A DNA stretch of 22,691 nucleotides, taken from assembly GCA_015523645.1 (NCBI GenBank), contig WAJY01000248.1:1-22691 (forward strand), in the 5' to 3' direction. Origin of the DNA: Geoglobus sp. (GTDB lineage Archaea > Halobacteriota > Archaeoglobi > Archaeoglobales > Archaeoglobaceae). Under the pieces are notes generated by a model. It had not been told where the DNA came from, did not search any database, and worked only from the letters and a program-made list of their open reading frames with translations. A program made the translations under genes and the position numbers. Positions 3,188 through 21,256 of this stretch are shown here, in pieces; the first letter of the stretch is position 1, and every line of letters starts with the position of its first letter.

Positions 3188-4441
3188 TTAATTAACAATA
3201 GGGACGATTGATGATGCATGCGGGAGTACCAAAATCTTCTCTCCCTTGCTAATCTTAACTGCCTTTTCTAAAGCTGTTTCTAAGTCAGAAACGAGATCAA
3301 TTTTGAGAGTTTCTCCATCCCTAGAAGTTAACTTGTCGGAGACAAAAATAACATTGCGCTTTGCTACTGTCTTCGCCCAAAGGTATGCTTTGTGAACACC
3401 AATTTTAAATCCTGTCTCTCTAAAATAATCTATTATCTCGCTAGGAGATGAAAAAGAGCTAAGTGTTCTCTCAAAAGCCTCATCACCCAGCCCTCCTGGA
3501 CATTCTGCAACCAAAACAATAACCCCATCAGGCTTTGAAACGATTTCAGCAGTAGCCAGAGCTTTCTGAGCTTGGTAGACATTTAAGTCCCTAGGATACC
3601 CACCTGGAGATGCAACAACGATGTCTGCTAAGAATGGAGTCTTAACCTCCAAGATATCTCTGGCAAACTCAACCCCCTTTCTGTGGGCTTCTAACCAGTC
3701 ACCAGCCACAGCCTTCAGCAAACCTTTTCTGTAATCAATAACAACGTTCACCAGGAAATCAATCCTTGCAACTGATCCAATTTCATCTATATCCTCTCTT
3801 ACTGGATTTCCCTCCAAGACTCCAAGCTTTGCTTTTTCATCAAGCATGAGAGAATGATTTGTTTCTATTGTCTCTACCCCTCCCAAGCCTATTGCAACAC
3901 CCTTTGCACCTCCAGTATATCCGACAAACTGATGTGGCTCAATCATCCCTGTAACAATCCTTTTTTCAGCCTGAAAATAGTGCTTGTTTACCCAGATGGG
4001 CGTTCCTCTGGATGTTCTTCCAAGATATGCTAGATTCTCACTATCCATTGCATCATGAAAAACGATCCTTCCAAATTCACTTACCAACTCCTCACCGACA
4101 AGATCTTCAATGGAGAGATTTTTGCTCTCATGCATTCCTGTTCCAACAAGCAGTGTAATGTTCTCTCCACCAATTCCTTGCTCTTTGAGCTTGGAGAGAA
4201 GAGAGTTGAGTATCAGAGAGTTTGGCACCGGTCGAGTTTCATCGCTAATAACAATGGCTACGCTTTCAGCACCATTCAATTCAGCCATGCCTTTATGAGA
4301 TACTGGGTTTTCCAAAGCCCTCAAAACCTCAGCTTCTGGATTTTTTGGTGGGTGAGCTTTCTTTGGGAGAAGATAAAATCCGGAGAATTTTCCGGTTACC
4401 TTTAACGTTCCATCTCCATAGGGAACCTCAATTTTCATCAT
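3188..4441 (-). CDS. larA: LarA-family nickel-pincer 2-hydroxyacid racemase
   Basis: Predicted to interconvert the enantiomers of a 2-hydroxy acid by hydride transfer to a nickel-pincer nucleotide cofactor bound covalently to a lysine. Visible active-site residues are His104 (GTGMHES), His170 (EPHQF), Lys180 (GGAK) and His196 (TNHSLM). They sit at a constant offset of four from L. plantarum LarA His108, His174, Lys184 and His200 (from memory of that family). Length (417) is normal. The gene starts 10 bases after the dehydrogenase stop, with GAGGT upstream of ATG, so the two are co-transcribed. Homologues include lactate, malate and other racemases, and the substrate cannot be read from sequence. 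Given suyAB in the island, sulfolactate is a candidate; malate is the main alternative. The cofactor genes larB, larC and larE are not in this window and would have to be elsewhere. Confidence 0.88.
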   Translation of the reverse strand: MMKIEVPYGDGTLKVTGKFSGFYLLPKKAHPPKNPEAEVLRALENPVSHKGMAELNGAESVAIVISDETRPVPNSLILNSLLSKLKEQGIGGENITLLVGTGMHESKNLSIEDLVGEELVSEFGRIVFHDAMDSENLAYLGRTSRGTPIWVNKHYFQAEKRIVTGMIEPHQFVGYTGGAKGVAIGLGGVETIETNHSLMLDEKAKLGVLEGNPVREDIDEIGSVARIDFLVNVVIDYRKGLLKAVAGDWLEAHRKGVEFARDILEVKTPFLADIVVASPGGYPRDLNVYQAQKALATAEIVSKPDGVIVLVAECPGGLGDEAFERTLSSFSSPSEIIDYFRETGFKIGVHKAYLWAKTVAKRNVIFVSDKLTSRDGETLKIDLVSDLETALEKAVKISKGEKILVLPHASSIVPIVN

Positions 4442-4451
4442 GTATCATACC

Positions 4452-5480
4452 TCATTCCAACTTTAACTCAACTCCAAACTCCTCTGAAAGATCAACCAAG
4501 CTTGCAAGAGTTTCTTCATCCAGAGGTATTCCCTTCTTTTTCCTCTCCTCCAGTATCTTGAATTTAAGCTCTCCGGGCACTCTGATTTCATCGAACTCCT
4601 TCATTTTTGGGATCGACTTCAATCTCGCAAGATATGCTTCTATGTCCTTTAAATAGTCTGCATAGTCTCTAAAGCCCTCAACACTGATTGCAAGAATTGA
4701 GAAGCCTCCCTGCGAGGAGAAATCAGATGGTAAATCAAATCCAAACTTTCCCCCAAGAACTGCTCCACAAAACAAATCGATCATCAATGCCAGTGCATAT
4801 CCCTTCACACCATCTGGTAGCAGAGCACCTCCTATTGCTTTTTCAGGATCCGTGGTTGGCTCACCATTCTCATCAAGAGCCCAGTTCGGAGGTATTTTTT
4901 CTCCCCTCTTCCAAGCAAGAAGTATTTTTCCCCTAGAAGAAATGCTCATTGCAGAATCAAACAGAATGTGTCTGTTTTCCTTGAATGGAAAACCTATTGC
5001 TACCGGATTTGTGCCCAAAAAAGCCCTTCTTCCACCCAGGGGCGCCATGACAGCCGGAGCATTTGCTACTGCCATTCCAATCATTCTGCTTTCAACAACC
5101 TTCAGGGTGTAGTGGGTTAGCATGCCCACATGCCCCAGATTTACTGCACATCCAAATCCGATACCGTTGCTTTCTGCTTTTTCAATAACCCTTTCAGTAA
5201 CCTCCATCGCAACTCCCTGCCCCAATCCAGAATCGCCATCGATAAAAACAATTCCATCACTCTCCCTTATTATTTTGTAATCGGGACAGGGATTTAACTT
5301 ACCGCTACGGATGGCTTTAACGTAATAAGGTAGCCTGACTATTCCGTGGGAATCAACTCCAAAAAGATTTGCCAAAACCAAATGATCTGCAACAATTCTT
5401 GAGTCTCTATCCCCAACCCCAAGTTTTAGAAGAACGCCTTGAGCAAACAGCTTCAGTCCTTCGGGATCAACAACAATCAT
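4452..5480 (-). CDS. Ldh_2 (malate/L-lactate/sulfolactate dehydrogenase) family oxidoreductase
   Basis: An NAD(P)-dependent 2-hydroxyacid dehydrogenase of the Ldh_2 fold, 342 residues. Signature segments are DSHGIVRL (active-site SHG near residue 45), NLGHVGMLTHYT, a glycine-rich LGGRRAFLGTNPVAIGFPF and, late in the chain, DGVKGYALALMID. The family includes malate dehydrogenases, ureidoglycolate dehydrogenase and ComC, the (R)-sulfolactate dehydrogenase of coenzyme M biosynthesis and of bacterial sulfolactate catabolism. ATG 5480 is the first gene of an operon with larA and perhaps gntR. A TATA box at 5503-5512 puts the predicted mRNA start nearly at the ATG, and a FadR-type operator lies between them. 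Role inferred: oxidation or reduction of the 2-hydroxy acid handled by LarA and SuyAB. A ComC-like role is attractive but unproven; malate oxidation is equally possible on sequence alone. Confidence 0.85.
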   Translation of the reverse strand: MIVVDPEGLKLFAQGVLLKLGVGDRDSRIVADHLVLANLFGVDSHGIVRLPYYVKAIRSGKLNPCPDYKIIRESDGIVFIDGDSGLGQGVAMEVTERVIEKAESNGIGFGCAVNLGHVGMLTHYTLKVVESRMIGMAVANAPAVMAPLGGRRAFLGTNPVAIGFPFKENRHILFDSAMSISSRGKILLAWKRGEKIPPNWALDENGEPTTDPEKAIGGALLPDGVKGYALALMIDLFCGAVLGGKFGFDLPSDFSSQGGFSILAISVEGFRDYADYLKDIEAYLARLKSIPKMKEFDEIRVPGELKFKILEERKKKGIPLDEETLASLVDLSEEFGVELKLE

Positions 5481-5486
5481 GGTATG

Positions 5487-5497
5487 TGGTCTAACCA
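5487..5497. promoter_or_regulatory. FadR-type operator TGGTCTAACCA, dehydrogenase promoter
   Basis: A palindrome with TGGT/ACCA arms and a 3-base centre, matching the FadR-subfamily pattern TNGTNNNACNA. It sits between the TATA box (5503-5512, minus strand) and the predicted mRNA start near 5482, where a bound protein would block RNA polymerase. The same 11-mer, and one flanking G, recurs at the suyA promoter. Confidence 0.75.
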
Positions 5498-5502
5498 GAT
5501 TG

Positions 5503-5512
5503 TATTTATTAA
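5503..5512 (-). promoter_or_regulatory. TATA box of the ldh2-larA operon
   Basis: On the minus strand this reads TTAATAAATA, centred about 27 bases before the ATG at 5480, suggesting a leaderless or nearly leaderless mRNA. Confidence 0.5.
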
Positions 5513-5760
5513 TTTTTGATGGTAAGGTTGCTCAACTCTACCAATCATAACAAAATCCAAAAAATTTGGGGGATAGAGGAAAAAGAAAAACACCACCTAT
5601 AGCATAGAGAACTGCCAAGCCCGTAGCGAATTCAGTTTAGGCAAAATCACTCCTTCAGTCTTTGATTTTTGTCTCAAAATAAATTTAATTAAAATTTTTA
5701 TTTTTCCTTTTTCCAACTTACCAAAACACTCTAGCTCAATCAACCTTTAAATCGAAAATC

Positions 5761-5770
5761 ATTAAATACA
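5761..5770 (+). promoter_or_regulatory. TATA box of sdhC
   Basis: ATTAAATACA lies about 25 bases before ATG 5791, and no ribosome binding site is present before that ATG, which fits a leaderless transcript. Confidence 0.45.
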
Positions 5771-5790
5771 CTTCCATCTGGCTTGATGAT

Positions 5791-6141
5791 ATGCCTAGGT
5801 TATTCAACTCTGAGAATGCCTTGCAAAATTCACTGAGGTCTTGGTTTAAGATAAGAGGTAGGTATTATCATGGTGGCATTGCATTCGCCTTTCACAGAAT
5901 CTCAGGATTTTTTCTGGTTGGCTACTTTTTGTTCCACATGCTTGCCTTTCCTCAATCACTTAGGATAGGTTTTAAAATAGCCCCTCTCATAGTTTTTATC
6001 GCCACATTTCACGCCCTCAATGGACTGAGGCTTGCGCTAAATGAGATCGGTGTTGGATACAGCCATAGAAGGGTTTTTGTGATGCTAGTAGTTCTCTTAT
6101 CCTTCATAACTTTAGGAGCATTCCTCCTCCTATCTTCATGA
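5791..6141 (+). CDS. sdhC: Succinate dehydrogenase/fumarate reductase cytochrome b subunit (SdhC-like)
   Basis: A 116-residue membrane anchor of the succinate:quinone oxidoreductase family. After a charged N-terminus, three hydrophobic helices are visible. The conserved segment FHRISGFFLVGYFLFHML carries the HR(I/L)SG signature, and FHALNGLRLALNE supplies a second histidine; these are the usual heme b ligands and quinone-site residues. ATG 5791 is preceded by a TATA box at leaderless distance. The next gene starts 10 bases after its stop, giving a CD pair. The matching flavoprotein and iron-sulfur subunits are encoded on the other strand about 4-7 kb away, so the complex is split over two operons. 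The complex could run as succinate dehydrogenase or as fumarate reductase; sequence does not decide. Confidence 0.85.
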   Translation: MPRLFNSENALQNSLRSWFKIRGRYYHGGIAFAFHRISGFFLVGYFLFHMLAFPQSLRIGFKIAPLIVFIATFHALNGLRLALNEIGVGYSHRRVFVMLVVLLSFITLGAFLLLSS

Positions 6142-6151
6142 GGTGGTTGTA

Positions 6152-6457
6152 ATGGAAAGAAGAGTTGCGGGTTACGCGAATCCGATTGCATGGCTCTTGA
6201 AGGTAATCTCTGGCTTGGCTCTTCTTATATTGTTAAGCATGCATCTCCTTGCAACTCACACCAACTCAAGTCTAATTAGAATAACGAACGAGATGTTTTA
6301 TGCTACCCTCTTAATTTTCGTACTCATCCACGTATCTACAGCCTTGAGGGACGTGCTAATTGAACTGAGCCTTAAGAGAATGGCTGTATGGGCTGTTATA
6401 ATTGCAATCTTACTAATAGCTATTCCCCATTTTGGATTTGCTGGCTTTCCTGCATGA
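6152..6457 (+). CDS. sdhD: Succinate dehydrogenase/fumarate reductase second membrane subunit (SdhD-like)
   Basis: A small protein of 101 residues with three transmembrane helices and histidines in the first two (LLSMHLLATH and VLIHVSTALRDVL), as in SdhD-type anchors. ATG 6152 is chosen because GAGGTGG lies a few bases upstream; a GTG at 6143 in the same frame overlaps that ribosome site and is less likely. It overlaps nothing and follows sdhC by 10 bases, so the two are translated from one mRNA. Together they would hold the SdhAB catalytic part on the membrane and pass electrons to or from the quinone pool. No regulator site was seen specifically before this pair. Confidence 0.8.
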   Translation: MERRVAGYANPIAWLLKVISGLALLILLSMHLLATHTNSSLIRITNEMFYATLLIFVLIHVSTALRDVLIELSLKRMAVWAVIIAILLIAIPHFGFAGFPA

Positions 6458-6550
6458 TCAAGAAAAACTGCCAAAATTCATTTTTCCAAAATAAGAGGAG
6501 AAGAATCGATTTCATCAATTCCTCAACCCATTAACCGTAAGTTTTATTAA

Positions 6551-6558
6551 TTATAAAT
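6551..6558 (+). promoter_or_regulatory. TATA box of the TRAP transporter operon
   Basis: TTATAAAT precedes the predicted mRNA start near 6580 by about 26 bases. The operator variant at 6567-6577 lies between them, and a leader with GGAGGTG follows. Confidence 0.5.
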
Positions 6559-6566
6559 CTGGAAAT

Positions 6567-6577
6567 AGGTAAGACCA
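6567..6577. promoter_or_regulatory. Variant FadR-type operator, TRAP receptor promoter
   Basis: On the minus strand this reads TGGTCTTACCT: the left half TGGTCT is the same as at the other two sites, and one outer base breaks the symmetry. Its position relative to the TATA box (about 8 bases downstream) is the same as in the dehydrogenase and suyA promoters, which makes chance less likely. Confidence 0.6.
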
Positions 6578-6596
6578 CAGACCGGAGGTGGAAAAA

Positions 6597-7664
6597 TTGA
6601 ACAAAAGATTTGGTGGTAAAAGTAACAGGGTAGCCTTAGTTGGGCTGCTGATTCTGATGTCGCTCGTGATAGCATTTGCTGGTTGTGCACAAAAAGCTCC
6701 TGAGGAGAAACCAAAGCCTGCTGAAACTGCCACAGAAACTCCGAAGCCTGCTGGTATTACTCTAACGACTGCAGGAGGAACCCCGGGAGGGGTTGGTTAT
6801 GCTATTATGAGTGCAACAATGTCCACGACATCTAAAAATTATCCTGAAATCAACTACAACATAGTTCCCGGAGGTTGGGTGGGGAACATACACAGAGTGA
6901 ACAGGGGTGAGCTTGATGTAGCCCATACAACAAAAGCAGCTGGTGCGCTTGCAATGTCCCAGAAGGGTCCATTTGAAGGAAAACCAAAGCCAGAAAATGT
7001 AAGAACGCTGTTCATGGATCAGATAGAAGTCTACTACTTTATAGTTGCAAGAGCCGATTTTCCATATGACACTGTTGATGAGATTGCAGAAGCAAAATAC
7101 CCGCTAAAGGTAACAAATCAGCCAAAAGGGACATTTGGAGGTTATCTATGGGATTCTATACTTACTGAGCTTGGAATGGATGAAGAGACACTCAAATCAC
7201 TTGGAGGAAGTTTGACACGTGTAACTTGGTCCGATGCAGCAAGCTTGCTCAGAGACGGGCATGTTGATGCTATACTGGCTGTTGGTGGTAAAAAGATTGG
7301 CTGGCTTGAAGAGATAACAGCCTTGAAGGACGTGAAGTATGTAGGACTTTCTGAAGAGCTTGCAGATAGAGTTTCTAAGAAATACGGGCTTATAAAGGTT
7401 AAGATACCTGCAGGCACTTTTCCAAAACAGGACAAGCCGATAATTGCGCTTAAGGATACTGGCATGATTATCGCAAAAAAGGACTTGCCTGAAGATGTTG
7501 CATACAAGATCGTTAAAGCTGTTGCAACGGATTATGAGTACTTCAAATCACAGCACGCGATGCTCCAGAACTTCAAACCCGGACCTGATATGTATAAGCT
7601 GAGCCCGTTCCCTCTACACCCAGGGGCAATAAAAGCTTACAAGGAATTGGGTTACATGAAATGA
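6597..7664 (+). CDS. TAXI-family TRAP transporter solute receptor (lipoprotein)
   Basis: Extracytoplasmic receptor of a tripartite ATP-independent transporter, about 355 residues. The N-terminus is a signal peptide with a hydrophobic core and a lipobox AFAGC (Cys30), followed by a Lys/Pro/Thr-rich linker, so it is predicted to be lipid-anchored outside the membrane. The mature part starts with the TAXI-type segment ITLTTAGGTPGGVGYAI and contains GELDVAHTTKAAGAL, which match the family. TTG 6597 is chosen because the GGAGGTG ribosome site at 6584-6590 is spaced correctly for it; the in-frame GTG at 6588 lies inside that site. The permease follows. TAXI receptors bind glutamate, succinate-like or largely unknown carboxylates; the ligand here is not readable. 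Context suggests a hydroxy acid such as sulfolactate, or a C4 acid. Confidence 0.9.
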   Translation: MNKRFGGKSNRVALVGLLILMSLVIAFAGCAQKAPEEKPKPAETATETPKPAGITLTTAGGTPGGVGYAIMSATMSTTSKNYPEINYNIVPGGWVGNIHRVNRGELDVAHTTKAAGALAMSQKGPFEGKPKPENVRTLFMDQIEVYYFIVARADFPYDTVDEIAEAKYPLKVTNQPKGTFGGYLWDSILTELGMDEETLKSLGGSLTRVTWSDAASLLRDGHVDAILAVGGKKIGWLEEITALKDVKYVGLSEELADRVSKKYGLIKVKIPAGTFPKQDKPIIALKDTGMIIAKKDLPEDVAYKIVKAVATDYEYFKSQHAMLQNFKPGPDMYKLSPFPLHPGAIKAYKELGYMK

Positions 7665-7671
7665 TAAAACA

Positions 7672-7692
7672 AAATTTTTTAATTTTTTAACC
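7672..7692 (+). terminator. T-rich stretch between TRAP receptor and permease
   Basis: Two runs of six T residues follow the receptor stop without a stem. Such runs act as terminators in archaea; here it may be partial, giving more receptor than permease mRNA. A GGAGGGG ribosome site follows before the permease ATG. Confidence 0.35.
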
Positions 7693-7730
7693 AATTTTTA
7701 GAGTTAACACCCATGTAATGGAGGGGTTCA

Positions 7731-9638
7731 ATGGGAGTGATTTCGGAGGATAGCCTAAAGAGGATAGCAAGAATTCTGATCTCAATTCTTGCAGTTGGAA
7801 CGGCATCCTTTCACCTCTATACAGGAGCTTTCGGGACATTTGACGCTTTAATTCAGCGTCCAGTTCATCTTCTTCTTCTCACAGCCCTTTCCTTCTGCAT
7901 ATACCCGTTCTTGGGCAAATCTGAAAATTTGAAAGCAAGAATTGTGGATTTTCTCTTGGTTGTTCTAACCCTCATTTCCCTAGCCTACATTCTCGCATCT
8001 CACGACAGGTATCTGAACACAATTCTCTACGTAGATTATCCGCAGACACTTGACTGGGTGTTCACAATTCTGGTAACAGCACTGGTTTTGGAGGCTGCAA
8101 GAAGAGCTGTAGGGGCTGCTCTCCCTTTCTTGGCTCTGGTCTTTTTGGTAGCAAGCTATATGCTTGCCACACTTCAAATATTCCCTGGAATGGGATTTCC
8201 TAAGATCCCGGACTACTGGTGGGTTCATGCAATCTTCATAAGCACCCAGGGACTCTGGGGCATTCCAACAATGGTCTCAGCAACTTACATCTTTCTATTT
8301 GTCGTTCTTGCAGCCTTGCTTGAGGCAACAAAGGTTGGAAGGTTTCTTATAGACTTTGCAATTTCCCTTGTTGGAAGATCAACAGGAGGTCCAGGAAAGG
8401 TTGCAGTTGTTTCAAGCTCCCTTTTTGGCTCCATCTCAGGAAGCGCCGCAGCAAACGTCTATGCAACCGGGGTCTTCACAATACCGACGATGAAGAAATT
8501 TGGATTTGAGAAGAACTTTGCAGGCGCTGTAGAGGTTGTGGCTTCTACAGGCGGACAGCTCATGCCACCGATAATGGGTGCCGGAGCCTTTGTGATGGCT
8601 GAGTTTTTGGGGATACCATACATCAGAATTGCCGCAGCTGCAATCATACCCGCATTCCTCTACTACCTTGCTACCTTCTGGGCAGTTCATGCAGAGGCGA
8701 AGAGGCGGGGACTTACTGGACTTCCAAGCGATCAGGTTAGATCATTCAAAAGCATGATGAGAGATGAGATGGGGCAGTTTATCACCTTCTTCATAACAAT
8801 AGGTGCTCTTGTTGCAATGCTTTTGAGCGGATCTTCTCTTTACAGGGCAGTTTTCATAACGATCCTTATACTTCTGTTTGTCAGTTCGCTCAGAGCCGAA
8901 TCGAGGCTCGGTCCAAGAAGCTTCTGGTTCGCTCTTGAAACAGCATCGAAAAACGCAACCATGATTGCAATGGCTTGTGGAGTGGCATCTCTGATTGTTG
9001 GCATTCTAACGGTAACAGGACTTGGTGTCTCTTTCTCAAAGCTGCTCATCGACTTCAGCCACGGCAATGTCATGCTACTCCTCTTCGCAGCCGCACTTCT
9101 TGCCATCATCCTCGGCATGGGTATGCCAACAACTGCCGCCTACATCCTTGCCGCATCTTTAATAGCTCCTGCACTGATAACCTCAGGTGTTGGAAAGCTC
9201 CCTGCTCACTTCTATGTCTTCACATTCGCCATTTATTCAACAATCACTCCTCCAGTTGCTCTTGCAGCATATGCTGCCGCCAACATCTCTCAGGGAGACC
9301 CGATCAAAACGGCATCACTGGCAATAAAGATGGTGATGCCGAGCTTCATAATACCTGTGAGATACGTCTTACATCCAGCCATCCTTCTCATTGGATCACC
9401 TTTTAGCATAATTACAGACATACTACTCCTCTGCATCGCAGTTATAGCATTCGAGGCAAGCATATTCTCCTGGCCCATTGAAGATAAGCTTACAAGAGCA
9501 CTTTTCGCCATAGGTAGCTTGGTTATAATCTTTCCCTTAATGACACCAAGACTTGAGGGAGACCTTATTGGCTTTGGAATCATACTCCTTGGCTTCGTCT
9601 TGAGCCTGTTCCTTGGCAAAAGAAGGAGTGGTGTATGA
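7731..9638 (+). CDS. TRAP transporter fused permease (DctQ-DctM type)
   Basis: An integral membrane protein of 635 residues combining the small 4-helix and the large 12-helix TRAP permease parts, the arrangement typical of TAXI systems. Signature segments of the large part are visible: the SISGSAAANVYATG motif, the GGQLMPPIMGAGAFVMAE segment, LGMGMPTTAAYILAASL and ITPPVALAAYAAANIS. It uses an ion gradient, usually sodium, to drive uptake of the solute delivered by the receptor. ATG 7731 is preceded by GGAGGGG. The stop overlaps the start of the TauE gene by four bases (ATGA), indicating translational coupling. The C-terminal part carries extra hydrophobic helices, as often in fused TAXI permeases. 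Confidence 0.93.
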   Translation: MGVISEDSLKRIARILISILAVGTASFHLYTGAFGTFDALIQRPVHLLLLTALSFCIYPFLGKSENLKARIVDFLLVVLTLISLAYILASHDRYLNTILYVDYPQTLDWVFTILVTALVLEAARRAVGAALPFLALVFLVASYMLATLQIFPGMGFPKIPDYWWVHAIFISTQGLWGIPTMVSATYIFLFVVLAALLEATKVGRFLIDFAISLVGRSTGGPGKVAVVSSSLFGSISGSAAANVYATGVFTIPTMKKFGFEKNFAGAVEVVASTGGQLMPPIMGAGAFVMAEFLGIPYIRIAAAAIIPAFLYYLATFWAVHAEAKRRGLTGLPSDQVRSFKSMMRDEMGQFITFFITIGALVAMLLSGSSLYRAVFITILILLFVSSLRAESRLGPRSFWFALETASKNATMIAMACGVASLIVGILTVTGLGVSFSKLLIDFSHGNVMLLLFAAALLAIILGMGMPTTAAYILAASLIAPALITSGVGKLPAHFYVFTFAIYSTITPPVALAAYAAANISQGDPIKTASLAIKMVMPSFIIPVRYVLHPAILLIGSPFSIITDILLLCIAVIAFEASIFSWPIEDKLTRALFAIGSLVIIFPLMTPRLEGDLIGFGIILLGFVLSLFLGKRRSGV

Positions 9639-10396
9639 ATTTTGACTACTTCCAGCTTGCAGTGATAGTAGTTGCGGTTGTTGGCTCAGCAATAATAAAA
9701 AATGGTGTAGGAATAGGATCTGGAATCTTTCTGGTTACTCTCCTCTCACTAACTCTCCCTCCAAAAATTGCCCTAGGACTTGGTGCTCCTGCAATGCTCA
9801 TTTCTGACATAGTAGGGATCAGAAATTACTGGAAAGAGTGGAACAAGGGAGAGCTGCTTCTCCTTGTCCCATCAGCCTCAATTGGGGTTTTAGTTGGAGG
9901 CATCACCGTAAAGTTCACACCAAACGAGATATTCAGAATCTGGGTAGGAAGTTTTGCTTTGATAATTGCAATCTACAACCTAGGCAGGGGAAGAATATTC
10001 AAATGGAAAGGCTATGAGATGAATTTTTTCAAATCCATCGACGGCAAAAAGCTCACAGGATTTTTTGGTTTTCTTGGCGGTGTTGCTAGCACAATAATCC
10101 ATGCTGGAGGTCTTGTGATGTCGCTATTCCTTCTCAAGGAGAAGTCTGACAAGAGAATGTTTGTGGGAACGCTTGTTTTTTTCTTTGCAATTGTAAATTT
10201 CCTTAAGATGATAGCCTACATAGGAATAGGCATACTAACATCAAACACACTGCTTTTGGTTCTCCTCGCCTCACCTCTCATCGTTCTTGGAGGAAATGTT
10301 GGGAATGCCCTAAATAAGAGGGTAGAGCAGGAACACTTTAGAACAATCGTGCTTCTCGTAATACTTCTAATAGGAGCAAGGCTATTGCTTGGATAG
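9635..10396 (+). CDS. TauE/SafE-family membrane exporter (putative sulfite exporter)
   Basis: A 253-residue protein with about eight transmembrane helices in two repeated halves; the glycine-rich segments IIKNGVGIGSGIFLV and FFGFLGGVASTIIHAGG are the paired TauE/SafE motifs. Members export sulfite or sulfonated compounds during sulfonate breakdown, though many have unknown substrates. ATG 9635 lies within the last codons of the permease (ATGA overlap), so the two are co-translated, linking it to the imported substrate. Together with suyAB this suggests disposal of sulfite. In a sulfate-reducing archaeon sulfite would also be a useful electron acceptor, so the direction and need for export are open questions. 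The 3' end overlaps the convergent sdhB gene by 15 bases. Confidence 0.85.
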   Translation: MNFDYFQLAVIVVAVVGSAIIKNGVGIGSGIFLVTLLSLTLPPKIALGLGAPAMLISDIVGIRNYWKEWNKGELLLLVPSASIGVLVGGITVKFTPNEIFRIWVGSFALIIAIYNLGRGRIFKWKGYEMNFFKSIDGKKLTGFFGFLGGVASTIIHAGGLVMSLFLLKEKSDKRMFVGTLVFFFAIVNFLKMIAYIGIGILTSNTLLLVLLASPLIVLGGNVGNALNKRVEQEHFRTIVLLVILLIGARLLLG

Positions 10397-11146
10397 CCTA
10401 TGAATTTTTTCTGAGAACAGGCTCAGTTTCTTCTTGAAGGAAAAGGAAAGAATCATTCTTCTTAGCATCTGAATGGCTTGAGCAGGTTCAACACCTTTAG
10501 GACAGTTTTCACTGCATTCTGATGCAAAATGACACCTCCAGACACCAGAATTTGAATTTAACACCTCATACCTCTCCTCAAAACCTTCATCCCTTGAATC
10601 TACTATGTATCTGTATGCTTGTGAAAGTGCCTGGGGTCCAAGATACTCCCAAGAACTGTCGAAATTCGGGCATGAAGATGAGCAGAGACCGCAAACTATG
10701 CAGTATCCATAATTGAGATACCTCTGCAGTTCATGAGGTAGTTGAACGTAAAATTTCTTTGGCTTCTCCTGCTCCTCTCTATTCTTCCTTATCAGATATG
10801 GCTTAACACTTCTGTGTTTCTCAAAAAAATCGTCCATCTCAACAACCAGATCCTTTATAACCCTGTATTTTGGAAGTGGCTTGATCGTTACCTCATCTCT
10901 CCCCAAATCCTTGATGAGGGTCTTGCACGCAAGTCTCGGCACCTCATCTATCAGCATACCGCAGGAACCGCACTGAGCCATTCTGCATGAATACCTGAAG
11001 CTCAGGGATGGGTCCAAGTTCTCCCTCACCCAGATTAGGGCTTCCAGAACCCTTGTATATTCGTAAACCTCAACCACATACTCCTGAAAACGAGGCTTTT
11101 TGTCCTTTAATGGATCAAATCTGAGAATCTTTAGAGTAACTTCCAT
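10382..11146 (-). CDS. sdhB: Succinate dehydrogenase/fumarate reductase iron-sulfur subunit
   Basis: 254 residues with the full set of iron-sulfur ligands. The N-terminal ferredoxin domain has Cys54, Cys59, Cys62 and Cys74 for a [2Fe-2S] cluster; the C-terminal domain has C149IVCGLCSSSCP for [4Fe-4S] and C205HFASECSENCPKG for the third cluster, of the [3Fe-4S] type by similarity to bacterial SdhB. It passes electrons between the flavin in SdhA and the membrane quinone site formed by SdhCD. ATG 11146 begins six bases after the sdhA stop. It is the last gene of the suyA operon, and its stop lies inside the convergent TauE gene. Confidence 0.93.
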   Translation of the reverse strand: MEVTLKILRFDPLKDKKPRFQEYVVEVYEYTRVLEALIWVRENLDPSLSFRYSCRMAQCGSCGMLIDEVPRLACKTLIKDLGRDEVTIKPLPKYRVIKDLVVEMDDFFEKHRSVKPYLIRKNREEQEKPKKFYVQLPHELQRYLNYGYCIVCGLCSSSCPNFDSSWEYLGPQALSQAYRYIVDSRDEGFEERYEVLNSNSGVWRCHFASECSENCPKGVEPAQAIQMLRRMILSFSFKKKLSLFSEKIHRLSKQ

Positions 11147-11152
11147 AGCCTT

Positions 11153-12838
11153 TCAATACCTCCTCTCCTCTGGTTTCCATTTTGTTATCCTAACTGGCTT
11201 GTACGAAATCTCAACTCCACCATTCCTGCATCTTGCTATTGTGTGCCTAAGCCACTTGTTGTCATCACGGTAAGGAAAATCTAAGCGATAATGCGCCCCT
11301 CTCGATTCTCTTCTCATTAAAGCACTTGTCACAATTACCTCAGCAACATCGAGCATGAAGCCAAGCTCAAGGAGATGAATTAGTTCAACATTGAAAGCCC
11401 TTGAAGAGTCGCTCAAGCCAACATTCAGGTAATCTTCTTTTAGCTGTCTTATCGTTTTCAGAGCTTCAAGCAACCCCTTCTCTTCTCGAAAAACATGAAC
11501 ATTTTTTTCCATTGTTCTTTGGAGCCTCTTTATTAAAGAATAAACTCCGAAGTCACCTCTCTTGCCAATAATTTTCTCAATGCTATCCACCTCCTCAAAT
11601 ATCCTTTTCTTTGAAACTTTTACACTCTCTTTTTTGCGAATCGCATAGGATACAGCACTTCTACCTGCAATCGCACCTGTAACCAAGCACATTGGAAGAG
11701 AATTGCTTCCAAGCCTGTTTGCCCCATCAATGCTCGCACATGCCACTTCTCCAGCAGCAAACACACCCATTACCTCGGTTTTCATGCCTATGTCAACATC
11801 TATCCCACCCATTGAAAAATGGGCTGCAGGTCTAACAGGGACTAGCTCTGTTAGAGGATCTATTCCTATAAAATCTCTCGCGTTCTCAACAAATGTTCGA
11901 TAAATTGTGAGAAGCTTTTCCTCTCCCACAGGTCTTGCATCAAGCAGGACAGAATCCATGTTTCCATGACTCTTCCATCCTCTTCCTTCCATGATTTCCT
12001 GCATTATTGCTCTTGATATGATATCCCTTGCCGCGAGATCCATTTTTTCAGGAGCGTATCTTTTCATAAACCTCTCTCCCTCTGAATTCAGCAGTATGGC
12101 TCCATGACCCCTCAATGCTTCTGTTGCTGGAATTCCATGGGGAACCATGCAGGTTGGAAGCCACTGAATAAATTCCATGTCCTTTAGGGGTATTCCGGCT
12201 TTAAAAGCCATTGCAAAACCGTCTCCGGTGGTTGTATGGGCATTTGTTGTGAACTCCCATAGCCTTCCCAAGCCTCCGGTTGCCAGAATTATTGCTCTAG
12301 CTTTAAAAAAAACAGGTGAGGTGTCTTTTCTTTTCAAAGCTAGGAGACCGCTGAATCTGCCTTCCTCAACAACAAGTGAGACTGCAAAAAATTCATCGTA
12401 TCTTTCAAAGTTCTGATATCTAAGAAGGGTGTCGTAAAGAGTCCTCATCAGAAAATGTCCTGTTCTGTCTTCAGCAAATACGGTTCTCGGGACCTCATGA
12501 GCTCCAAAAAGTCTCAAAGCTATCGATCCATCCTCATTTCTGCTCCAAGGACATCCCCAGTGTTCAAGCTGGAGTATCTCTTCAGGACACCTCCTCACAA
12601 ACTCCTCAACAACATCCTGATCTGCCAGAAAATCGCTTCCTTTTATTGTATCGTAAGCGTGCTGCTCAAAGCTATCATTCTCAGACAGAACGGCAGCAGC
12701 ACCCCCTTCCGGAGCTACCGAATGAGATCTCATCAAGTGAACCTTCGAAATTACTCCAACACTCAATTTCTCGTTGCTAGCTTTCAGCACCTCTATGGCA
12801 GATCTCAAGCCCGCGATTCCTGTGCCAAGTATCAGCAC
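11153..12838 (-). CDS. sdhA: Succinate dehydrogenase/fumarate reductase flavoprotein subunit
   Basis: Catalytic subunit interconverting succinate and fumarate with covalent FAD. Visible: the dinucleotide fold LILGTGIAGL at the N-terminus, the FAD-linking histidine in RSHSVAPEGGAAA, the substrate segment HTTTGDGFAMAF, the proton-shuttle arginine region ARDIISRAI, RPAAHFSMGGIDVD and ANRLGSNSLPMCLVTG near the C-terminal side of the FAD domain. The GTG at 12838 gives 561 residues but cuts into the first beta strand. Seven more in-frame codons upstream read LEVIEHD from a CTG at 12859, with GGGGTGA six bases before it; that is the usual SdhA N-terminus, so translation may start at CTG. It follows fumarase beta closely. 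Direction of reaction is not determined by the sequence. Confidence 0.93.
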   Translation of the reverse strand: MLILGTGIAGLRSAIEVLKASNEKLSVGVISKVHLMRSHSVAPEGGAAAVLSENDSFEQHAYDTIKGSDFLADQDVVEEFVRRCPEEILQLEHWGCPWSRNEDGSIALRLFGAHEVPRTVFAEDRTGHFLMRTLYDTLLRYQNFERYDEFFAVSLVVEEGRFSGLLALKRKDTSPVFFKARAIILATGGLGRLWEFTTNAHTTTGDGFAMAFKAGIPLKDMEFIQWLPTCMVPHGIPATEALRGHGAILLNSEGERFMKRYAPEKMDLAARDIISRAIMQEIMEGRGWKSHGNMDSVLLDARPVGEEKLLTIYRTFVENARDFIGIDPLTELVPVRPAAHFSMGGIDVDIGMKTEVMGVFAAGEVACASIDGANRLGSNSLPMCLVTGAIAGRSAVSYAIRKKESVKVSKKRIFEEVDSIEKIIGKRGDFGVYSLIKRLQRTMEKNVHVFREEKGLLEALKTIRQLKEDYLNVGLSDSSRAFNVELIHLLELGFMLDVAEVIVTSALMRRESRGAHYRLDFPYRDDNKWLRHTIARCRNGGVEISYKPVRITKWKPEERRY

Positions 12839-12871
12839 ATCGTGCTCAATAACTTCCAGATTTTGTCACCC

Positions 12872-13453
12872 CTAAGCAAAGCCTTGCAGAATTTCAGCAA
12901 GCTTCGCCCTAGCATTACTTGTAACTTTCTCGTAGATGCTATTTCCATGGGAATCCATTGATACAATAAGTGGACCAAAATCTCTCACTCTAAATACCCA
13001 AAGGCATTCAGGGAATAGATCTTCCCAGTAAACCTCCTCTATTTCCTCTATCTGTGTTGTCTCAAGTGCAGCAGCACCTCCAACAATGGAGAGATAAACT
13101 GCCCCAAATCTCTTCATCGCATCCAAGCTGCCCTTTAACAAACCACCCTTCCCTATTATCCCCCTAACTCCATACCTCTCAATCAGCAGAGGGGAGTACC
13201 TCTCCATTCTTGTGCTTGTGGTTGTCCCAATGCATATTTTCTTCCATCTTCCCCCTTCCTTCTTTGCATTTGGTGCGGTGTGAAGGACGATATAGTTTTC
13301 AAGGCTTACAGGTGGATCAACACCCTCATCAAATATTCTTCTTTGAGTTGCATCCCTGATTCCGATTATTCTGCCGTTAAGATAAACAACATCTCCTATC
13401 CTTAGCCTCCTAACTTCATGCTCGCTCACCGGACTTTCAAGCCTGTATTCCAT
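12872..13453 (-). CDS. fumB: Class I fumarase / L-tartrate dehydratase beta subunit
   Basis: 193 residues of the iron-sulfur hydro-lyase swivelling domain. Segments seen are RDATQRRIF, the glycine-rich IIGKGGLLKGSLDAM, YLSIVGGAAALE and DFGPLIVSMDSHGNSIYE, all typical of the C-terminal half of class I fumarases. It pairs with the alpha subunit just upstream to hydrate fumarate to malate, or to dehydrate tartrate. ATG 13453 is chosen because GAGGTG lies eight bases before it and it follows the alpha stop by 16 bases; a GTG at 13492 in frame would overlap the alpha gene. The stop lies directly before the ribosome site of sdhA. Fumarase is favoured over tartrate dehydratase because of the neighbouring succinate dehydrogenase. 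Confidence 0.9.
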   Translation of the reverse strand: MEYRLESPVSEHEVRRLRIGDVVYLNGRIIGIRDATQRRIFDEGVDPPVSLENYIVLHTAPNAKKEGGRWKKICIGTTTSTRMERYSPLLIERYGVRGIIGKGGLLKGSLDAMKRFGAVYLSIVGGAAALETTQIEEIEEVYWEDLFPECLWVFRVRDFGPLIVSMDSHGNSIYEKVTSNARAKLAEILQGFA

Positions 13454-13469
13454 AAGCCCACACCTCAAC

Positions 13470-14354
13470 TCAGGCAAGATATTCAACCTCAAACTCCTCA
13501 GAGATACAAGCGCAAGATCTTTGCCCTTTCCAGCACTGGAGATTTATTCCAACAGGAAGCTGGCTTATGTGCGTGTCTGCAATCTCAACGTTCACAGCCA
13601 AGGCTGTACATTTTCCTCCCAGTCCCATCGGACCTATCCCTGTTTTGTTGATCGCATTCAAAAGCTCATCCTCAAATCTTTGAAGACTCTCATCTGGATT
13701 TGGAATATCAATTCTCCTCATTGTTGCTGCTTTTTTTGCCAGCCAGGCACACTCATCAAACGTCCCGCCAATACCAACTCCAACGATAACAGGTGGGCAT
13801 GCTTTTGATGCCCCCTCAACTATTGACTCTAAAATGAACCTTTTAACGCCAGATACCCCTTCAGCTGGAGTGAGCATCCTGAGAAAGCTCTGATTCTCAG
13901 AGCCTGAGCCTTTAGGTACGCATGTAATTCTCACTAGCCATTCAGCATCATCTTGAAATTCGAAATGGACATCTGGAACTCTTCTGCCTACATTGTCGCC
14001 CCTCAATTCTCTTGTTAAAGGGTGAAGCATGTTTGGTCTGAGATCAAATTCCCTGGTTGCTTTGCTCGTACCTCTGTATACAGCCTCATAAACCTTTTTA
14101 AGGTTGAGGCTTACCTCACCACTTAGTTCAACAAGATAAACGGGTGTTCCGGTGTCCTGGCATACAATCATGTCATTTTCCTTGGCTACCTCTATGTTTT
14201 TCAAGATTGTTCCTAAGACCATTCTGCCAATCTCTGATTCCTCATCTTCATAAGCTCTCTCCAAGGCTCTCTGCACATCTCGCGGAACCTCCTTAAGAGC
14301 CTTAACATAAAGTTTCTTGCAAGCATCCTCTATCAGCCTGTAAAGTTTCTCCAT
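13470..14354 (-). CDS. fumA: Class I fumarase / L-tartrate dehydratase alpha subunit
   Basis: Catalytic [4Fe-4S] half of a two-subunit class I hydro-lyase, 294 residues. Three cluster cysteines are visible: Cys65 (VCQDTG), Cys186 (KACPPVIVGVGIGG) and Cys249 (GLGGKCTA); the substrate loop KGSGSEN is also present. The enzyme is oxygen-sensitive, which fits an anaerobe. ATG 14354 has GGTGAT upstream and lies 23 bases after the suyB stop; a TTG at 14372 would add six residues. Lying between suyB and sdhA, it suggests that fumarate or malate is made or used with the lyase pathway. Distinguishing fumarase from tartrate dehydratase needs biochemical data. Confidence 0.9.
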   Translation of the reverse strand: MEKLYRLIEDACKKLYVKALKEVPRDVQRALERAYEDEESEIGRMVLGTILKNIEVAKENDMIVCQDTGTPVYLVELSGEVSLNLKKVYEAVYRGTSKATREFDLRPNMLHPLTRELRGDNVGRRVPDVHFEFQDDAEWLVRITCVPKGSGSENQSFLRMLTPAEGVSGVKRFILESIVEGASKACPPVIVGVGIGGTFDECAWLAKKAATMRRIDIPNPDESLQRFEDELLNAINKTGIGPMGLGGKCTALAVNVEIADTHISQLPVGINLQCWKGQRSCACISEEFEVEYLA

Positions 14355-14377
14355 CCAGATCACCGCTTGCAAAAATG

Positions 14378-15538
14378 TTACATTGAAGGATAGAGCCTGT
14401 TGATCGTGAAGTTGTCATGCCTGACTATTTCAGCTGCTGTTAACTTGCCTGAGGCTACCTTAAGCATAAACTCAAAAACCTTCTCTCCCCCTTCCCTTAC
14501 ACTCATCTTGCCCCTAATTATGTCGCTTACATCCACGTCAATGTTGTCTTTCATTCTCTCAGCAGTAACGGGATTTCCGGTGATCTTGATCACCGGTATA
14601 ATCTGATGTCCCACAGGATTTCCCTGTCCGGTTGAGAAGAGGTGTATGGATGCACCAGCAGCAGCCAATAGTGTGACTTGTTCTTGGGCACTTGAGCTCG
14701 TATCCATGAACCAGAGTCCCTTGCTGGGAGGTCTTTCAGCTGGCTTAAGCACACCTTTGATGCCTCTTTTTGGCACTTTCTGAATGTTGCCCAGAGCCTT
14801 TTCCTCTATTGTTGTCAGACCACCTGCTATGTTTTCTTCTGTTGGCTGAGAACCCATTATATCAACGCCCTTCGATTTTGCAAACTCAAGATATCTGTTA
14901 AAAACCTCTAGAAACTTCTTCCTTTCTTTCTCATCCACAAATCTCTCCGCAATTATGTGTTCTCCTCCAGCTAATTCTGTTGTCTCTCCGAATATGAATG
15001 TTCCGCCTAGATCGATTATTTTTTCACCCACAACCCCGATAACAGGATTCGAGGCAATTCCAGATGTTGTGTCAGATGCTCCACACTTAACCCCAATTAT
15101 CAAGTCAGAGATCTTGCAGGGTTCTTTTTGTATTTCACTTGCCCATGATACCAGCTCTCTTGCATGCTTCGCAGCATCTCTAATTGCATCTATTGTCCCC
15201 TTTCCTATCACATGAACAGCTCTGACTGGCTTTTTCGATCTCCTCTCGATTTCTTCAGCAACTTTCAGCGTCCAGTTCGGTTCTATCCCAACAACAACAG
15301 CAGCAGCCACATTCGGATTACATCCAGTCCCTATCAGAGTTTCAAATGTCAATTCTAGATCCTCGCCAAACTGAAGCCTGCCATACTGGTGTGAGACTGC
15401 AGTCGTCCCTCTAATGAGCTTGCTTACTCCCTCAACAACAGGTGCCCCTGCATGATCAACTGCAATCAGAGCCACGTGATTTCTAACACCAACACTGCCA
15501 TCCTCTCTTCTGTAACCCAAAAACTCGACTTCAGACAT
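14378..15538 (-). CDS. suyB: (2R)-sulfolactate sulfo-lyase large subunit (SuyB-like, UxaA C-terminal family)
   Basis: 386 residues of the altronate/galactarate dehydratase C-terminal family. The segments GRLQFGEDLEL, IGTGCNPNVAAAVVVGIEP, CGASDTTSGIASNP, FGETTELAGGEHI, GLTTIEEKALGN and the C-terminal GLWFMDTSSSAQEQVTLLAAAG, STGQGNPVG and HIDVDVSD-like block with the end NRLYPSM resemble, as I recall it, bacterial SuyB more than sugar-acid dehydratases. With SuyA it would cleave (2R)-3-sulfolactate to pyruvate and sulfite. ATG 15538 has GAGGTG upstream and sits 10 bases after the suyA stop; a GTG at 15547 would add three residues. That large and small parts are separate genes, as in suyAB, supports the call. 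Altronate, galactarate or another hydroxy acid remain possible. Confidence 0.75.
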   Translation of the reverse strand: MSEVEFLGYRREDGSVGVRNHVALIAVDHAGAPVVEGVSKLIRGTTAVSHQYGRLQFGEDLELTFETLIGTGCNPNVAAAVVVGIEPNWTLKVAEEIERRSKKPVRAVHVIGKGTIDAIRDAAKHARELVSWASEIQKEPCKISDLIIGVKCGASDTTSGIASNPVIGVVGEKIIDLGGTFIFGETTELAGGEHIIAERFVDEKERKKFLEVFNRYLEFAKSKGVDIMGSQPTEENIAGGLTTIEEKALGNIQKVPKRGIKGVLKPAERPPSKGLWFMDTSSSAQEQVTLLAAAGASIHLFSTGQGNPVGHQIIPVIKITGNPVTAERMKDNIDVDVSDIIRGKMSVREGGEKVFEFMLKVASGKLTAAEIVRHDNFTINRLYPSM

Positions 15539-15548
15539 TCTAAACACC

Positions 15549-15830
15549 TCATGTGAACTTCAAACTCCTAACATTGTGTGTGTGCACGTGCTCTCCTGGC
15601 TCAATTTTTTCTGTTGCTGCTCCTATAATTTCACCGTATTTAACCACCTTACCACCCGCATCTATCAATTCCAGTGCAACCTTGTGTCCAAAAGGAATTC
15701 TTTCCTTAACAGAAATCTCAACCTCTTTTCCTCCTTTCTCAACACGAACCTTGTCTCCCGGCTCTAAATCCTCAAGAGCAACAGCAACGTTGTCTTTCTC
15801 ATCGTGCAGATGTATTTTTTTAATTGCCAA
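15549..15830 (-). CDS. suyA: (2R)-sulfolactate sulfo-lyase small subunit (SuyA-like, SAF domain)
   Basis: 93 residues forming a SAF domain, the N-terminal part of the UxaA family as a free subunit. Segments seen are DNVAVALEDLEPGDKV, IPFGHKVALELIDAGGKVVKYGE and a histidine-rich GEHVHTHNVRS near the C-terminus, which usually contributes to a metal/substrate site. It starts at TTG 15830 with GGAGGTG (15836-15842) five bases upstream, so the rare start is well supported. It is the first gene of a six-gene operon (suyA, suyB, fumA, fumB, sdhA, sdhB, with short gaps). Its promoter carries a TATA box and the FadR-type operator. Family confidence is high; the specific substrate rests on the SuyB partner and context. 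Confidence 0.78.
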   Translation of the reverse strand: MAIKKIHLHDEKDNVAVALEDLEPGDKVRVEKGGKEVEISVKERIPFGHKVALELIDAGGKVVKYGEIIGAATEKIEPGEHVHTHNVRSLKFT

Positions 15831-15850: not shown

Positions 15851-15861
15851 TGGTCTAACCA
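15851..15861. promoter_or_regulatory. FadR-type operator TGGTCTAACCA, suyA promoter
   Basis: Identical 11-mer to the dehydrogenase promoter site, here extended to 13 bases with perfect GTGGT/ACCAC arms (15850-15862). It lies about 11 bases downstream of the TATA box and overlaps the predicted mRNA start (near 15850). Confidence 0.75.
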
Positions 15862-20816: not shown

Positions 20817-21233
20817 ATGACAGATGATTGTGAGCAGTATGTTAGGGAGAAGATGAAGCTGTATCCTAGATTTTTGCAGCCAATCTGCCAGATATGGCCC
20901 GAGGCAGCCAAAAAATTTGCGGACTTCTATGAGGAAATTTTCAAGGATGGTGCATTGGACAGAAAAACGAAGGAACTGATTTTTACAGCTATAGGGGTAG
21001 CAACAGCCTCTCCAAGATGCATCGTTCATGTTATAGCCGCAGTTGAGGCAGGAGCCACAGACGAGGAAATACTGGAGGCAGTAACTGTCGGATTTATTGG
21101 AGCTGGCTTCTATCCCAACAATCCTGGCATTCCGTATGCATTTGAGTATGCAGCAAAGGCTTTAGAAGTTGCTCAGAAATACAGGAAAGGAGAAGATTGG
21201 GAGTATCTCCAGCCTCCAGAGTTCAGAGGTTAA
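20817..21233 (+). CDS. Carboxymuconolactone decarboxylase (AhpD-like) family protein with degenerate CxxC
   Basis: 138 residues of the CMD fold: KTKELIFTAIGVATASPRCIVHVIAAVEAGATDEEILEAVTVG is the helical core. The family redox pair CxxC is here SPRC, so only the second cysteine and the proton-relay histidine (CIVH) remain; peroxidase activity like AhpD is therefore unlikely, and a single-thiol or non-redox role is more probable. ATG 20817 has AAGGAGGAT directly upstream. A TATA-like ACTTAAATAG lies near 20770. It is followed by the MtaA-like gene after 39 bases, which may share the mRNA. Confidence 0.85.
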   Translation: MTDDCEQYVREKMKLYPRFLQPICQIWPEAAKKFADFYEEIFKDGALDRKTKELIFTAIGVATASPRCIVHVIAAVEAGATDEEILEAVTVGFIGAGFYPNNPGIPYAFEYAAKALEVAQKYRKGEDWEYLQPPEFRG

Positions 21234-21256
21234 ATTTTCTTTCCAATTTTTTATTT
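21232..21256 (+). terminator. T-rich stretch after the CMD gene
   Basis: Several T runs (TTTTC, then TTTTTTATTTTTTG) follow the stop, as in archaeal intrinsic termination. The next gene has its own GAGGTGGTG ribosome site, so readthrough is also plausible. Confidence 0.3.

Follow-up and report, generated by a model that had tools for sequence, protein, structure and literature searches.

What does an archaeon do with a gene island in which a candidate sulfolactate-cleaving enzyme, SuyAB, lies beside a LarA-type racemase, a fumarase, a succinate dehydrogenase (SDH), a TAXI-TRAP importer and a TauE-type exporter? The island lies on contig WAJY01000248.1 of Geoglobus sp., the whole of which (22,691 nucleotides; hereafter the window) was analyzed. 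The window is contig C248 of genome G000, an assembly of 1.71 Mb in 294 contigs that is 90.5% complete. A first-pass annotation had read positions 3188..15830 as a candidate sulfolactate utilization island. All of the genes that it named are present, as open frames at the positions given in Table 1, with matches to the corresponding Pfam and NCBIfam families.

We consider it moderately probable that the island forms a regulated unit for the catabolism of C3 sulfonates, operating by way of 3-sulfopropanoate. In this scheme, whose substrates, reactions, direction, import, export and repressor action are predictions from sequence, the TAXI-TRAP system would import 3-sulfopropanoate and perhaps sulfolactate too. 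A quinone-linked SDH paralogue (SdhA-D) would oxidize 3-sulfopropanoate, an analogue of succinate, to sulfoacrylate, an analogue of fumarate, and a FumAB paralogue would hydrate sulfoacrylate to 3-sulfolactate, an analogue of malate. LarA, with its nickel-pincer cofactor, would interconvert S- and R-sulfolactate, SuyAB would cleave R-sulfolactate by elimination to pyruvate and sulfite, and TauE would export the sulfite. A GntR/FCD protein would control two operons through TGGTCTAACCA sites. Such a unit would supply gene candidates for 3-sulfopropanoate breakdown, which the available parts of a 2024 and a 2026 paper leave open (PMC11489063, PMC12890257), offer a physiological substrate for the LarAH5 racemase Mar1, and extend sulfonate catabolism to an archaeal lineage that is probably thermophilic. 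For these copies, the curated names 'malate racemase' (NF052595), 'fumarate hydratase' and 'succinate dehydrogenase' would then mislead.

SuyAB and the predicted LarA racemase

SuyA and SuyB are encoded by separate genes, one for a SAF subunit and one for a GD_AH_second/GD_AH_C subunit. A maximum-likelihood tree was built from 67 of the 112 collected rows, with bootstrap values that had not fully settled. In it, the window SuyB falls inside a 47-row clade (support 100/100, stem 0.76), where it forms the first branch together with SuyB of G102, a genome from another genus of the same family. The clade takes in SuyB of Cupriavidus (beside hpsN/hpsO), Paracoccus and Methylobacterium. Outside it are Escherichia coli UxaA and GarD, each 31% identical to the window SuyB, along with haloarchaeal pairs, a gucD-cluster protein and two proteins of G149, a genome of another family in the same class. 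One row, which is a Variovorax protein in the quick tree, joins at the next branch outward (98/80). A sugar-acid dehydratase of the UxaA/GarD type, the outcome that the first-pass annotation had named as fatal to its reading, is rejected by this placement. Among the 40 of 317 matching plasmid records that were listed, the top 13 are 46-50% identical to SuyB and the other 27 are 37-43% identical. The top 13 include Cupriavidus pinatubonensis (beside hpsN/hpsO), Rhodobacteraceae SC52, Methylobacterium and Paracoccus versutus, whose SuyB lies beside a putative sulfate exporter gene. Clade membership argues that SuyAB is very probably a sulfolactate sulfo-lyase.

SuyB-clade genes also occur in two Sulfolobales, Metallosphaera yellowstonensis and archaeon HS-7, and in an uncultured archaeon (L051, L060 and L103; L-numbers denote the stretches read around loci). 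No LarA lies within these three stretches.

In the known sulfolactate pathway of SuyAB, SlcC and ComC (Chromohalobacter, Paracoccus and Cupriavidus; available parts of PMC12421959 and PMC6018796), a split SuyA and SuyB belongs to the same clade as the island pair. Methylobacterium suy clusters and the island likewise have in common a GntR regulator, a TauE-type gene and an Ldh gene. Unlike that pathway, the island has a LarAH5 gene and no SlcC-like gene in the window, and it adds a TAXI-TRAP importer, an archaeal SDH paralogue and a FumAB paralogue.

The window LarA scores over the curated cut-off for LarAH5 (NF052595, Table 1) and carries the group 5 signature as a PHQF loop and GVHKA (placed by eye); the signature is described in part of PMC7583248 as a Gln/His residue plus a GHK motif. 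Gln after the catalytic His and GxHK are common to the suy-linked LarAH5 proteins. The window copy has both of these features and a score over the family cut-off in common with LarAH5/Mar1, the 'malate racemase' of Desulfitobacterium hafniense, but it differs in its sulfonate-cleavage context and in its predicted substrate, sulfolactate.

That context recurs. Only two of 392 genomes of the phylum have LarAH5 over cut-off, and they are the two island carriers, G000 and G102. For wider comparison we named the best 80 of 584 confirmed suyB loci, which are thus the most similar loci and not a random sample, and counted a gene in a locus if an open frame matched at 60 bits or more. LarA lies near suyB in 11 of the 80, separated by about 500 bases or less in 7 of the 11; 10 of these LarAs are full length and 8 of the 10 are over the LarAH5 cut-off. 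The bacterial LarAs of L049 and L082 (the latter 4.3 kb off) are near suyB yet below it. In the Desulfosporosinus family, 11 of 45 genomes hold LarAH5 over cut-off, and in 10 of the 11, including Desulfosporosinus sp. SRJS8, suyB lies within 2 kb; in the lone exception larA is about 0.2 kb from the contig end. Ten further genomes of the family have sub-cut-off LarAH5 matches only; five of them were read, and none showed suyB within its stretch of 12-16 kb. Desulfitobacterium belongs to the same NCBI family, so that the context read here is that of family relatives of Mar1 and not of the Mar1 gene itself. One LarAH5 gene of this family is flanked by two suyAB pairs (genome G414, L306 5892-10201).

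The biochemistry of Mar1 points the same way. Its Michaelis constant (KM) for malate is 55 mM and its discoverers doubted that malate is the physiological substrate (available part of PMC7583248); because of this high KM, sulfolactate is the likelier native substrate. The word sulfolactate is absent from the main text of that paper and of a 2024 follow-up (PMC11770544). According to an excerpt of a review (PMC12890257), D. hafniense DCB-2 uses sulfolactate as a terminal electron acceptor. Our literature search, which did not extend to most subscription papers and theses and is therefore no proof of absence, returned no mention of a sulfolactate racemase and no paper joining suyAB with larA. 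From context, we predict with good confidence that LarA is a sulfolactate racemase. The first-pass annotation had suggested as much, and here it gains support; its view of the LarA-suyAB pairing as a new arrangement needs correction, since 11 of the 80 named loci have it and it is thus not peculiar to this archaeon. LarC, the only gene of nickel-pincer cofactor synthesis that was searched for, has a match in the window genome (G000:C122).

LarC occurs in 52 of the 55 family genomes, and a LarA-like match at E 1e-60 is listed for G000 and G102 only. In G149, non-SuyB-clade genes of the UxaA type lie beside LarAs without GxHK, the His-Lys being missing (L030 7189-10954 and L031 9868-12287). One of these two loci also has a methylcobalamin:coenzyme M methyltransferase gene, and both probably serve another hydroxy acid.

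A second way to read these genes is as a C4-dicarboxylate island, with a malate racemase, fumarase, SDH and malate dehydrogenase, in which the SuyAB-like pair would be a dehydratase of the tartrate, altronate or galactarate type. The NCBIfam name of LarAH5 and the family names of fumarase and SDH suit such an island, and the Ldh_2 protein fits a malate dehydrogenase as well as ComC. The SuyB clade, the way in which LarAH5 tracks suyAB, the poor malate kinetics of Mar1 and a changed substrate residue in SdhA (below) make it very improbable.

Fumarase and succinate dehydrogenase paralogues

The fumarase and SDH genes, which the first-pass annotation had treated as extras, are both divergent paralogues that recur beside suyAB in bacteria. 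At least one fumarase alpha subunit is matched in 52 of the 55 family genomes. G000 and G102 have two each, an island copy and an ordinary-type copy, the latter 50% (G000:C184) and 48% (G102:C50) identical to the island copy. The fumarase tree had 42 rows, with the ordinary copies of Archaeoglobaceae (a name used here for the window's family in the genome search) cut down from 28 to 14 and a 109-residue fragment from L101 left aside; E. coli FumA, which had a very long branch in a first tree, was omitted from the second, and E. coli TtdA was kept. The island pair and 11 of 11 full-length alpha subunits from bacterial suy clusters form one clade (100/99), which, save for one Moorella stamsii copy that falls inside it, leaves out the other fumarases of the same bacteria (14 control copies) and those of Archaeoglobaceae. 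The island fumarase thus has the same family matches as the ordinary class I enzyme of Archaeoglobaceae but does not group with it. Clade members depart from ordinary fumarases at residues next to the class I catalytic positions, which are taken from work on the Leishmania enzyme. In the beta subunit, the window reads GTTTSTR where PDB fumarases read GPTTSAR, with Thr90 in 14 of 14 clade copies where all 31 ordinary ones have Pro. Also uniform among the 14 are Thr72-Ala73 and Gly44 of this subunit. Alpha Ser156 (KGSGSEN, compared with KGAGSEN) and Thr267, which precedes a conserved His, are likewise found in 14 of 14. Because a script picked out the columns that differ, these changes show the divergence of the clade and not by themselves its function.

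The SdhA tree and residue counts used 49 rows, taken from 74 hits plus the window's own copy after duplicates and short rows were dropped and ordinary Archaeoglobaceae copies were again reduced from 28 to 14. The island SdhA shares 69-70% identity with its G102 island counterpart and 49-55% with ordinary Archaeoglobaceae SdhA. G102 has both kinds; in G000, an incomplete genome, the island copy is the only one at E 1e-60. All 13 SdhA proteins of bacterial suy clusters form one clade apart from other copies (Shimodaira-Hasegawa-like approximate likelihood ratio test 100, quick tree), and each of the 13 genomes holds at least one other SdhA-family copy. Ordinary SdhA proteins of Archaeoglobaceae form the sister group of the island pair (96), so that the pair was recruited separately. 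In FrdA numbering, His232 and Thr244 bind one carboxylate of succinate or fumarate. Of five FrdA substrate residues, the island SdhA keeps four. The position of His232 is Leu in both island copies, but His in every ordinary archaeal row (14) and every suy-cluster row from bacteria (13); the other bacterial rows have 16 His and 2 Phe. The position of Thr244 is Thr in the island pair, Glu in 13 of 13 bacterial suy-cluster rows, and Thr or Ser in 32 of 34 ordinary or other rows. None of the 49 rows departs from Arg287, His355 or Arg390. The island copy therefore resembles the succinate dehydrogenase of Archaeoglobaceae in family matches and in the last three residues, and differs as a paralogue with Leu at the His232 position.

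We also looked for residues that are common to the island and bacterial suy-cluster SdhA and rare in ordinary copies. They amount to six scattered columns, none at the five named residues; one of them (window residue 242) is three residues past the Thr244 position.

Among the 80 named suyB loci, SdhA is found in 13, a fumarase subunit in 12 and both in 11. The module occurs with suyAB in Methylobacterium, Massilia and Bacillus. For instance, a Methylobacterium plasmid cluster holds sdhB, two SDH membrane genes, fumarase alpha and beta and an FAD protein together with TauE, suyAB, oxidoreductase, Ldh and GntR genes. It appears that suyAB loci can be fed through different entry modules, each with sulfolactate as its end product: hpsN-like genes in 5 loci, a gabD-type aldehyde dehydrogenase in 12 and Fum/Sdh in 14. 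One stretch (L078) combines hpsN/O/P-like genes, a single suyAB, slcC/comC-like genes and sdh/fum genes. From this mix, the Fum/Sdh product would be sulfolactate and hence the starting compound 3-sulfopropanoate, and one SuyAB would serve two entry routes with sulfolactate as their common product. (SlcC, ComC, SuyZ and AdhHpsP are our own labels, given by position or annotation in the clusters of Methylobacterium oryzae, Paracoccus versutus and Rhodobacteraceae SC52.) A scan of 10 further proteins from four suy-fum-sdh loci gave one helpful match, an ABC importer of the nitrate/taurine/sulfonate type between sdhB and fumA in L120, which is under curated cut-offs.

Because the island fumarase and SDH have diverged from ordinary copies and their kind turns up repeatedly next to suyAB, the imported substrate is likely one stage upstream of sulfolactate, namely 3-sulfopropanoate. 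The first-pass annotation had proposed that sulfolactate is taken up and split; the splitting agrees with the SuyB clade, and the imported substrate is what would change. We predict, as fairly probable, that Sdh/Fum is a 3-sulfopropanoate module. We also lean slightly towards a broader two-part proposal: that archaea and bacteria share a 'sulfo' version of this tricarboxylic acid cycle segment, with fumarases of one cross-domain clade and a dehydrogenase recruited at least twice, and that LarAH5 is a sulfolactate racemase replacing SlcC/ComC. The same order of reactions, from 3-sulfopropanoate through sulfoacrylate to sulfolactate, is given for Roseovarius nubinhibens in the available part of PMC11489063, which cites a thesis and names no genes there; what differs here is that gene candidates are proposed, in an archaeon and several bacterial phyla. 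According to the same excerpt, Bilophila grows when 3-sulfopropanoate supplies its electron acceptor, and the route awaits study. A literature search on 3-sulfopropanoate with fumarase gave nothing further to the point among the matches listed, and sulfoacrylate is seldom mentioned in the literature covered by our search, once with regard to bacteria.

Several observations weigh against the proposed scheme. Neither Fum nor Sdh is found in 66 of the 80 loci, many of them on short stretches. The 14 Fum/Sdh loci were searched for gabD- and gabT-like genes (28% identity or more over 200 residues) and had none, and thus nothing found there makes 3-sulfopropanoate. A Moorella stamsii alpha subunit inside the suy-cluster fumarase clade comes from a contig other than that of suyAB, where FumAB (L269 8938-10424) adjoins a tricarboxylate-type binding protein. 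The island SdhA lies outside the bacterial suy-cluster clade, so that position and the changed residue are all that argue for its role. On its own, a missing His232 is no proof that a sulfonate is bound, and in the bacterial copies Thr244Glu brings a further negative charge close to the substrate. The Ldh_2 protein has no place in the proposed steps. LarA and SlcC-like genes never occur together in the 80 loci (11 and 34; hypergeometric P 0.0013) or in the 46 loci flanked by 4 kb or more on each side (7 and 22; P 0.0065); this exclusion is not significant in a kinship-aware test (6 independent pairs), and neither is that of Fum versus LarA. Finally, a looser form of the operator pattern shows no excess in the window (below).

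Homotaurine, by way of gabD and gabT, was considered as a source of 3-sulfopropanoate and set aside: gabD-like genes occur in 12 other loci and gabT-like genes in 3, and none in the Fum/Sdh loci.

Much of this would be accommodated by plain use of sulfolactate, which would be imported, racemized by LarA and cleaved by SuyAB, with fumarase and SDH only processing pyruvate or serving the general citric acid cycle. The SuyB clade, the linkage of LarAH5 to suyAB and the many suyB loci free of both Fum and Sdh fit it well. However, the genome already has a second, ordinary-type fumarase, the island fumarase belongs to the suy-cluster clade with changed residues, and the island SdhA lacks the usual substrate-binding His; we regard this explanation as unlikely.

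Sulfosuccinate is another conceivable substrate, since the same enzyme order and chemistry would work: an SDH-like step would give sulfofumarate, hydration would give sulfomalate, and SuyAB would release sulfite and oxaloacetate. That LarAH5/Mar1 acts on malate would suit this route. Six of the 14 Fum/Sdh loci, however, have the SlcC-like and ComC-like pair that racemizes sulfolactate, and the hps-like genes of L078 have sulfolactate as their product. Moreover, the SdhA changes are at one carboxylate site, which suits a substrate with one carboxylate exchanged better than one that carries an additional group. We consider the sulfosuccinate route quite improbable.

Still more improbable, in our judgment, is that Fum/Sdh runs in reverse, so that sulfolactate would be dehydrated and sulfoacrylate reduced to 3-sulfopropanoate as an electron sink, as in fumarate respiration. 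SDH and fumarate reductase enzymes are reversible, the organism is presumably anaerobic, and in the tree the island SdhA joins archaeal copies and E. coli FrdA in preference to E. coli SdhA. The same module is nevertheless present in Methylobacterium, Massilia and Bacillus, which are aerobes, and sulfolactate would be drained by SuyAB of the same operon.

A sister island and the probable fate of sulfite

A GD_AH_C protein is present in 12 of the 392 phylum genomes. In G102, the whole island is found on contig C36 in rearranged form. Identities between the window and G102 are 41% for sdhC, 32% for sdhD, 54% for ldh2, 47% for larA, 69% for sdhB and for sdhA, 72% for fumB, 61% for fumA, 79% for suyB, 68% for suyA, 60% for GntR, 54% for tauE, 72% for TRAP and 68% for TAXI. 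Because another genus of the same family has the same set, the gene set is not due to chance. A third genome of the family (G282, contig C89, L029) has a GD_AH_C protein that is cut at the contig end and is 42% identical to the window SuyB; no other island gene was matched on this 7 kb contig.

Between larA and sdhB, the G102 island has dsrO (272 bits, cut-off 200) and dsrP (356 bits, cut-off 350), and G102 also has dsrA over cut-off. In a third genus, the closest homologues of this dsrP (53-55%) are separated from dsrA by about 5 kb in four of five genomes; in the fifth, which is closed, the two are far apart. With dsrA in the genome and dsrOP inside the island, a link of the island to sulfite respiration is therefore plausible in G102. 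None of the seven genomes of the window's genus has dsrA over cut-off (the window genome being 90.5% complete, as above), and matches to the dsrA model are weak there, such as 38 bits in G000 compared with a cut-off of 393. For this reason export of sulfite would be likelier than respiration in the window organism. Of the two fates that the first-pass annotation had offered, electron acceptor or export, the former thus finds no support and the latter is favored. Two DsrP/NrfD-like fragments occur in the window genome (G000:C278 and G000:C34), although dsrA over cut-off was not found.

Ldh_2, operator-like sites and island layout

The island comprises suyA-suyB-fumA-fumB-sdhA-sdhB on the minus strand (15830 to 10382), sdhC-sdhD-TAXI-TRAP-tauE on the plus strand (5791 to 10396), and ldh2-larA (5480 to 3188) followed by GntR (3083 to 2352) on the minus strand. 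The GntR/FCD gene is part of the island, just beyond the interval first annotated. The Ldh_2 protein had been assigned to the ComC family, an assignment that we could not maintain. It scores far below the curated ComC cut-off (NF040650, Table 1) and matches ComC (2x06, 211 bits) and malate dehydrogenase (1v9n, 210 bits) equally; it may act on sulfolactate or malate.

Table 1. Features of the island in the window, with the evidence for each
Feature	Positions	Strand	Evidence
GntR/FCD regulator, probable repressor	2352..3083	-	GntR + FCD Pfam domains; 60% identity to G102 island copy
LarA, LarAH5 group, predicted sulfolactate racemase	3188..4441	-	NF052595 489.4 bits, cut-off 462
Ldh_2 dehydrogenase, ComC-like or malate-dehydrogenase-like	4452..5480	-	PF02615; NF040650 258 bits, cut-off 500
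Operator-like palindrome TGGTCTAACCA, upstream of ldh2-larA	5487..5497		Pattern count
SdhC-like membrane subunit	5791..6141	+	Weak TIGR02970 match, 25.9 bits, below cut-off 52.3
SdhD-like membrane subunit	6143..6457	+	Position after SdhC; no NCBIfam match
TAXI TRAP solute-binding protein	6588..7664	+	TIGR02122 148.5 bits, cut-off 84
Fused TRAP permease	7731..9638	+	TIGR02123 564 bits, cut-off 321
TauE/SafE exporter, probable sulfite exporter	9635..10396	+	PF01925 match only
SdhB-like iron-sulfur subunit	10382..11146	-	NF004616 292 bits, cut-off 228
SdhA-like flavoprotein paralogue, predicted 3-sulfopropanoate dehydrogenase	11153..12838	-	TIGR01812 688 bits
Class I fumarase beta paralogue, predicted sulfoacrylate hydratase	12872..13492	-	PF05683
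Class I fumarase alpha paralogue, predicted sulfoacrylate hydratase	13470..14372	-	PF05681
SuyB, predicted sulfolactate sulfo-lyase large subunit	14378..15547	-	PF04295 + PF20629; SuyB clade
SuyA, SAF-domain subunit	15549..15830	-	PF08666; 68% identity to G102 copy
Second operator-like palindrome TGGTCTAACCA, upstream of suyA	15851..15861		Pattern count

The window contains the pattern TGGTNNNACCA at exactly two places, before ldh2 and before suyA, and at each the letters are TGGTCTAACCA. The pattern is expected 0.22 times, and two copies were reached by 1 of 100 shuffles, a count made after the fact because the pattern was narrowed once two loose matches proved identical. The looser pattern TNGTNNNACNA was found 4 times compared with 3.65 expected. 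In the G102 island, the near-identical TGGTCTTACCA lies just upstream of the TAXI gene (L028:1104-1114); the strict pattern has no match in L027, the first part of that island, and no exact copy in the rest of it. One further operator match in G102 lies about 3 kb more upstream, outside the island.

The G+C content is even along the window (39-48% per kb), and a tRNA search of the window found none. A DNA ligase adjoins the island, with PDB 3gde, the Archaeoglobus fulgidus DNA ligase, as best match (834 bits, compared with 551 for the next); a host from the Archaeoglobus family is thus most likely. Directly upstream of suyA, on the same strand, is a DUF2284-like protein (15907-16626, minus strand) with weak NCBIfam matches to such selenoprotein models and no match within the G102 stretches L027 and L028. 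Further along, at 20817-22295 on the plus strand, an AhpD-like protein is followed by an MtaA/CmuA-like methyltransferase (187 bits, below the cut-off of 235).

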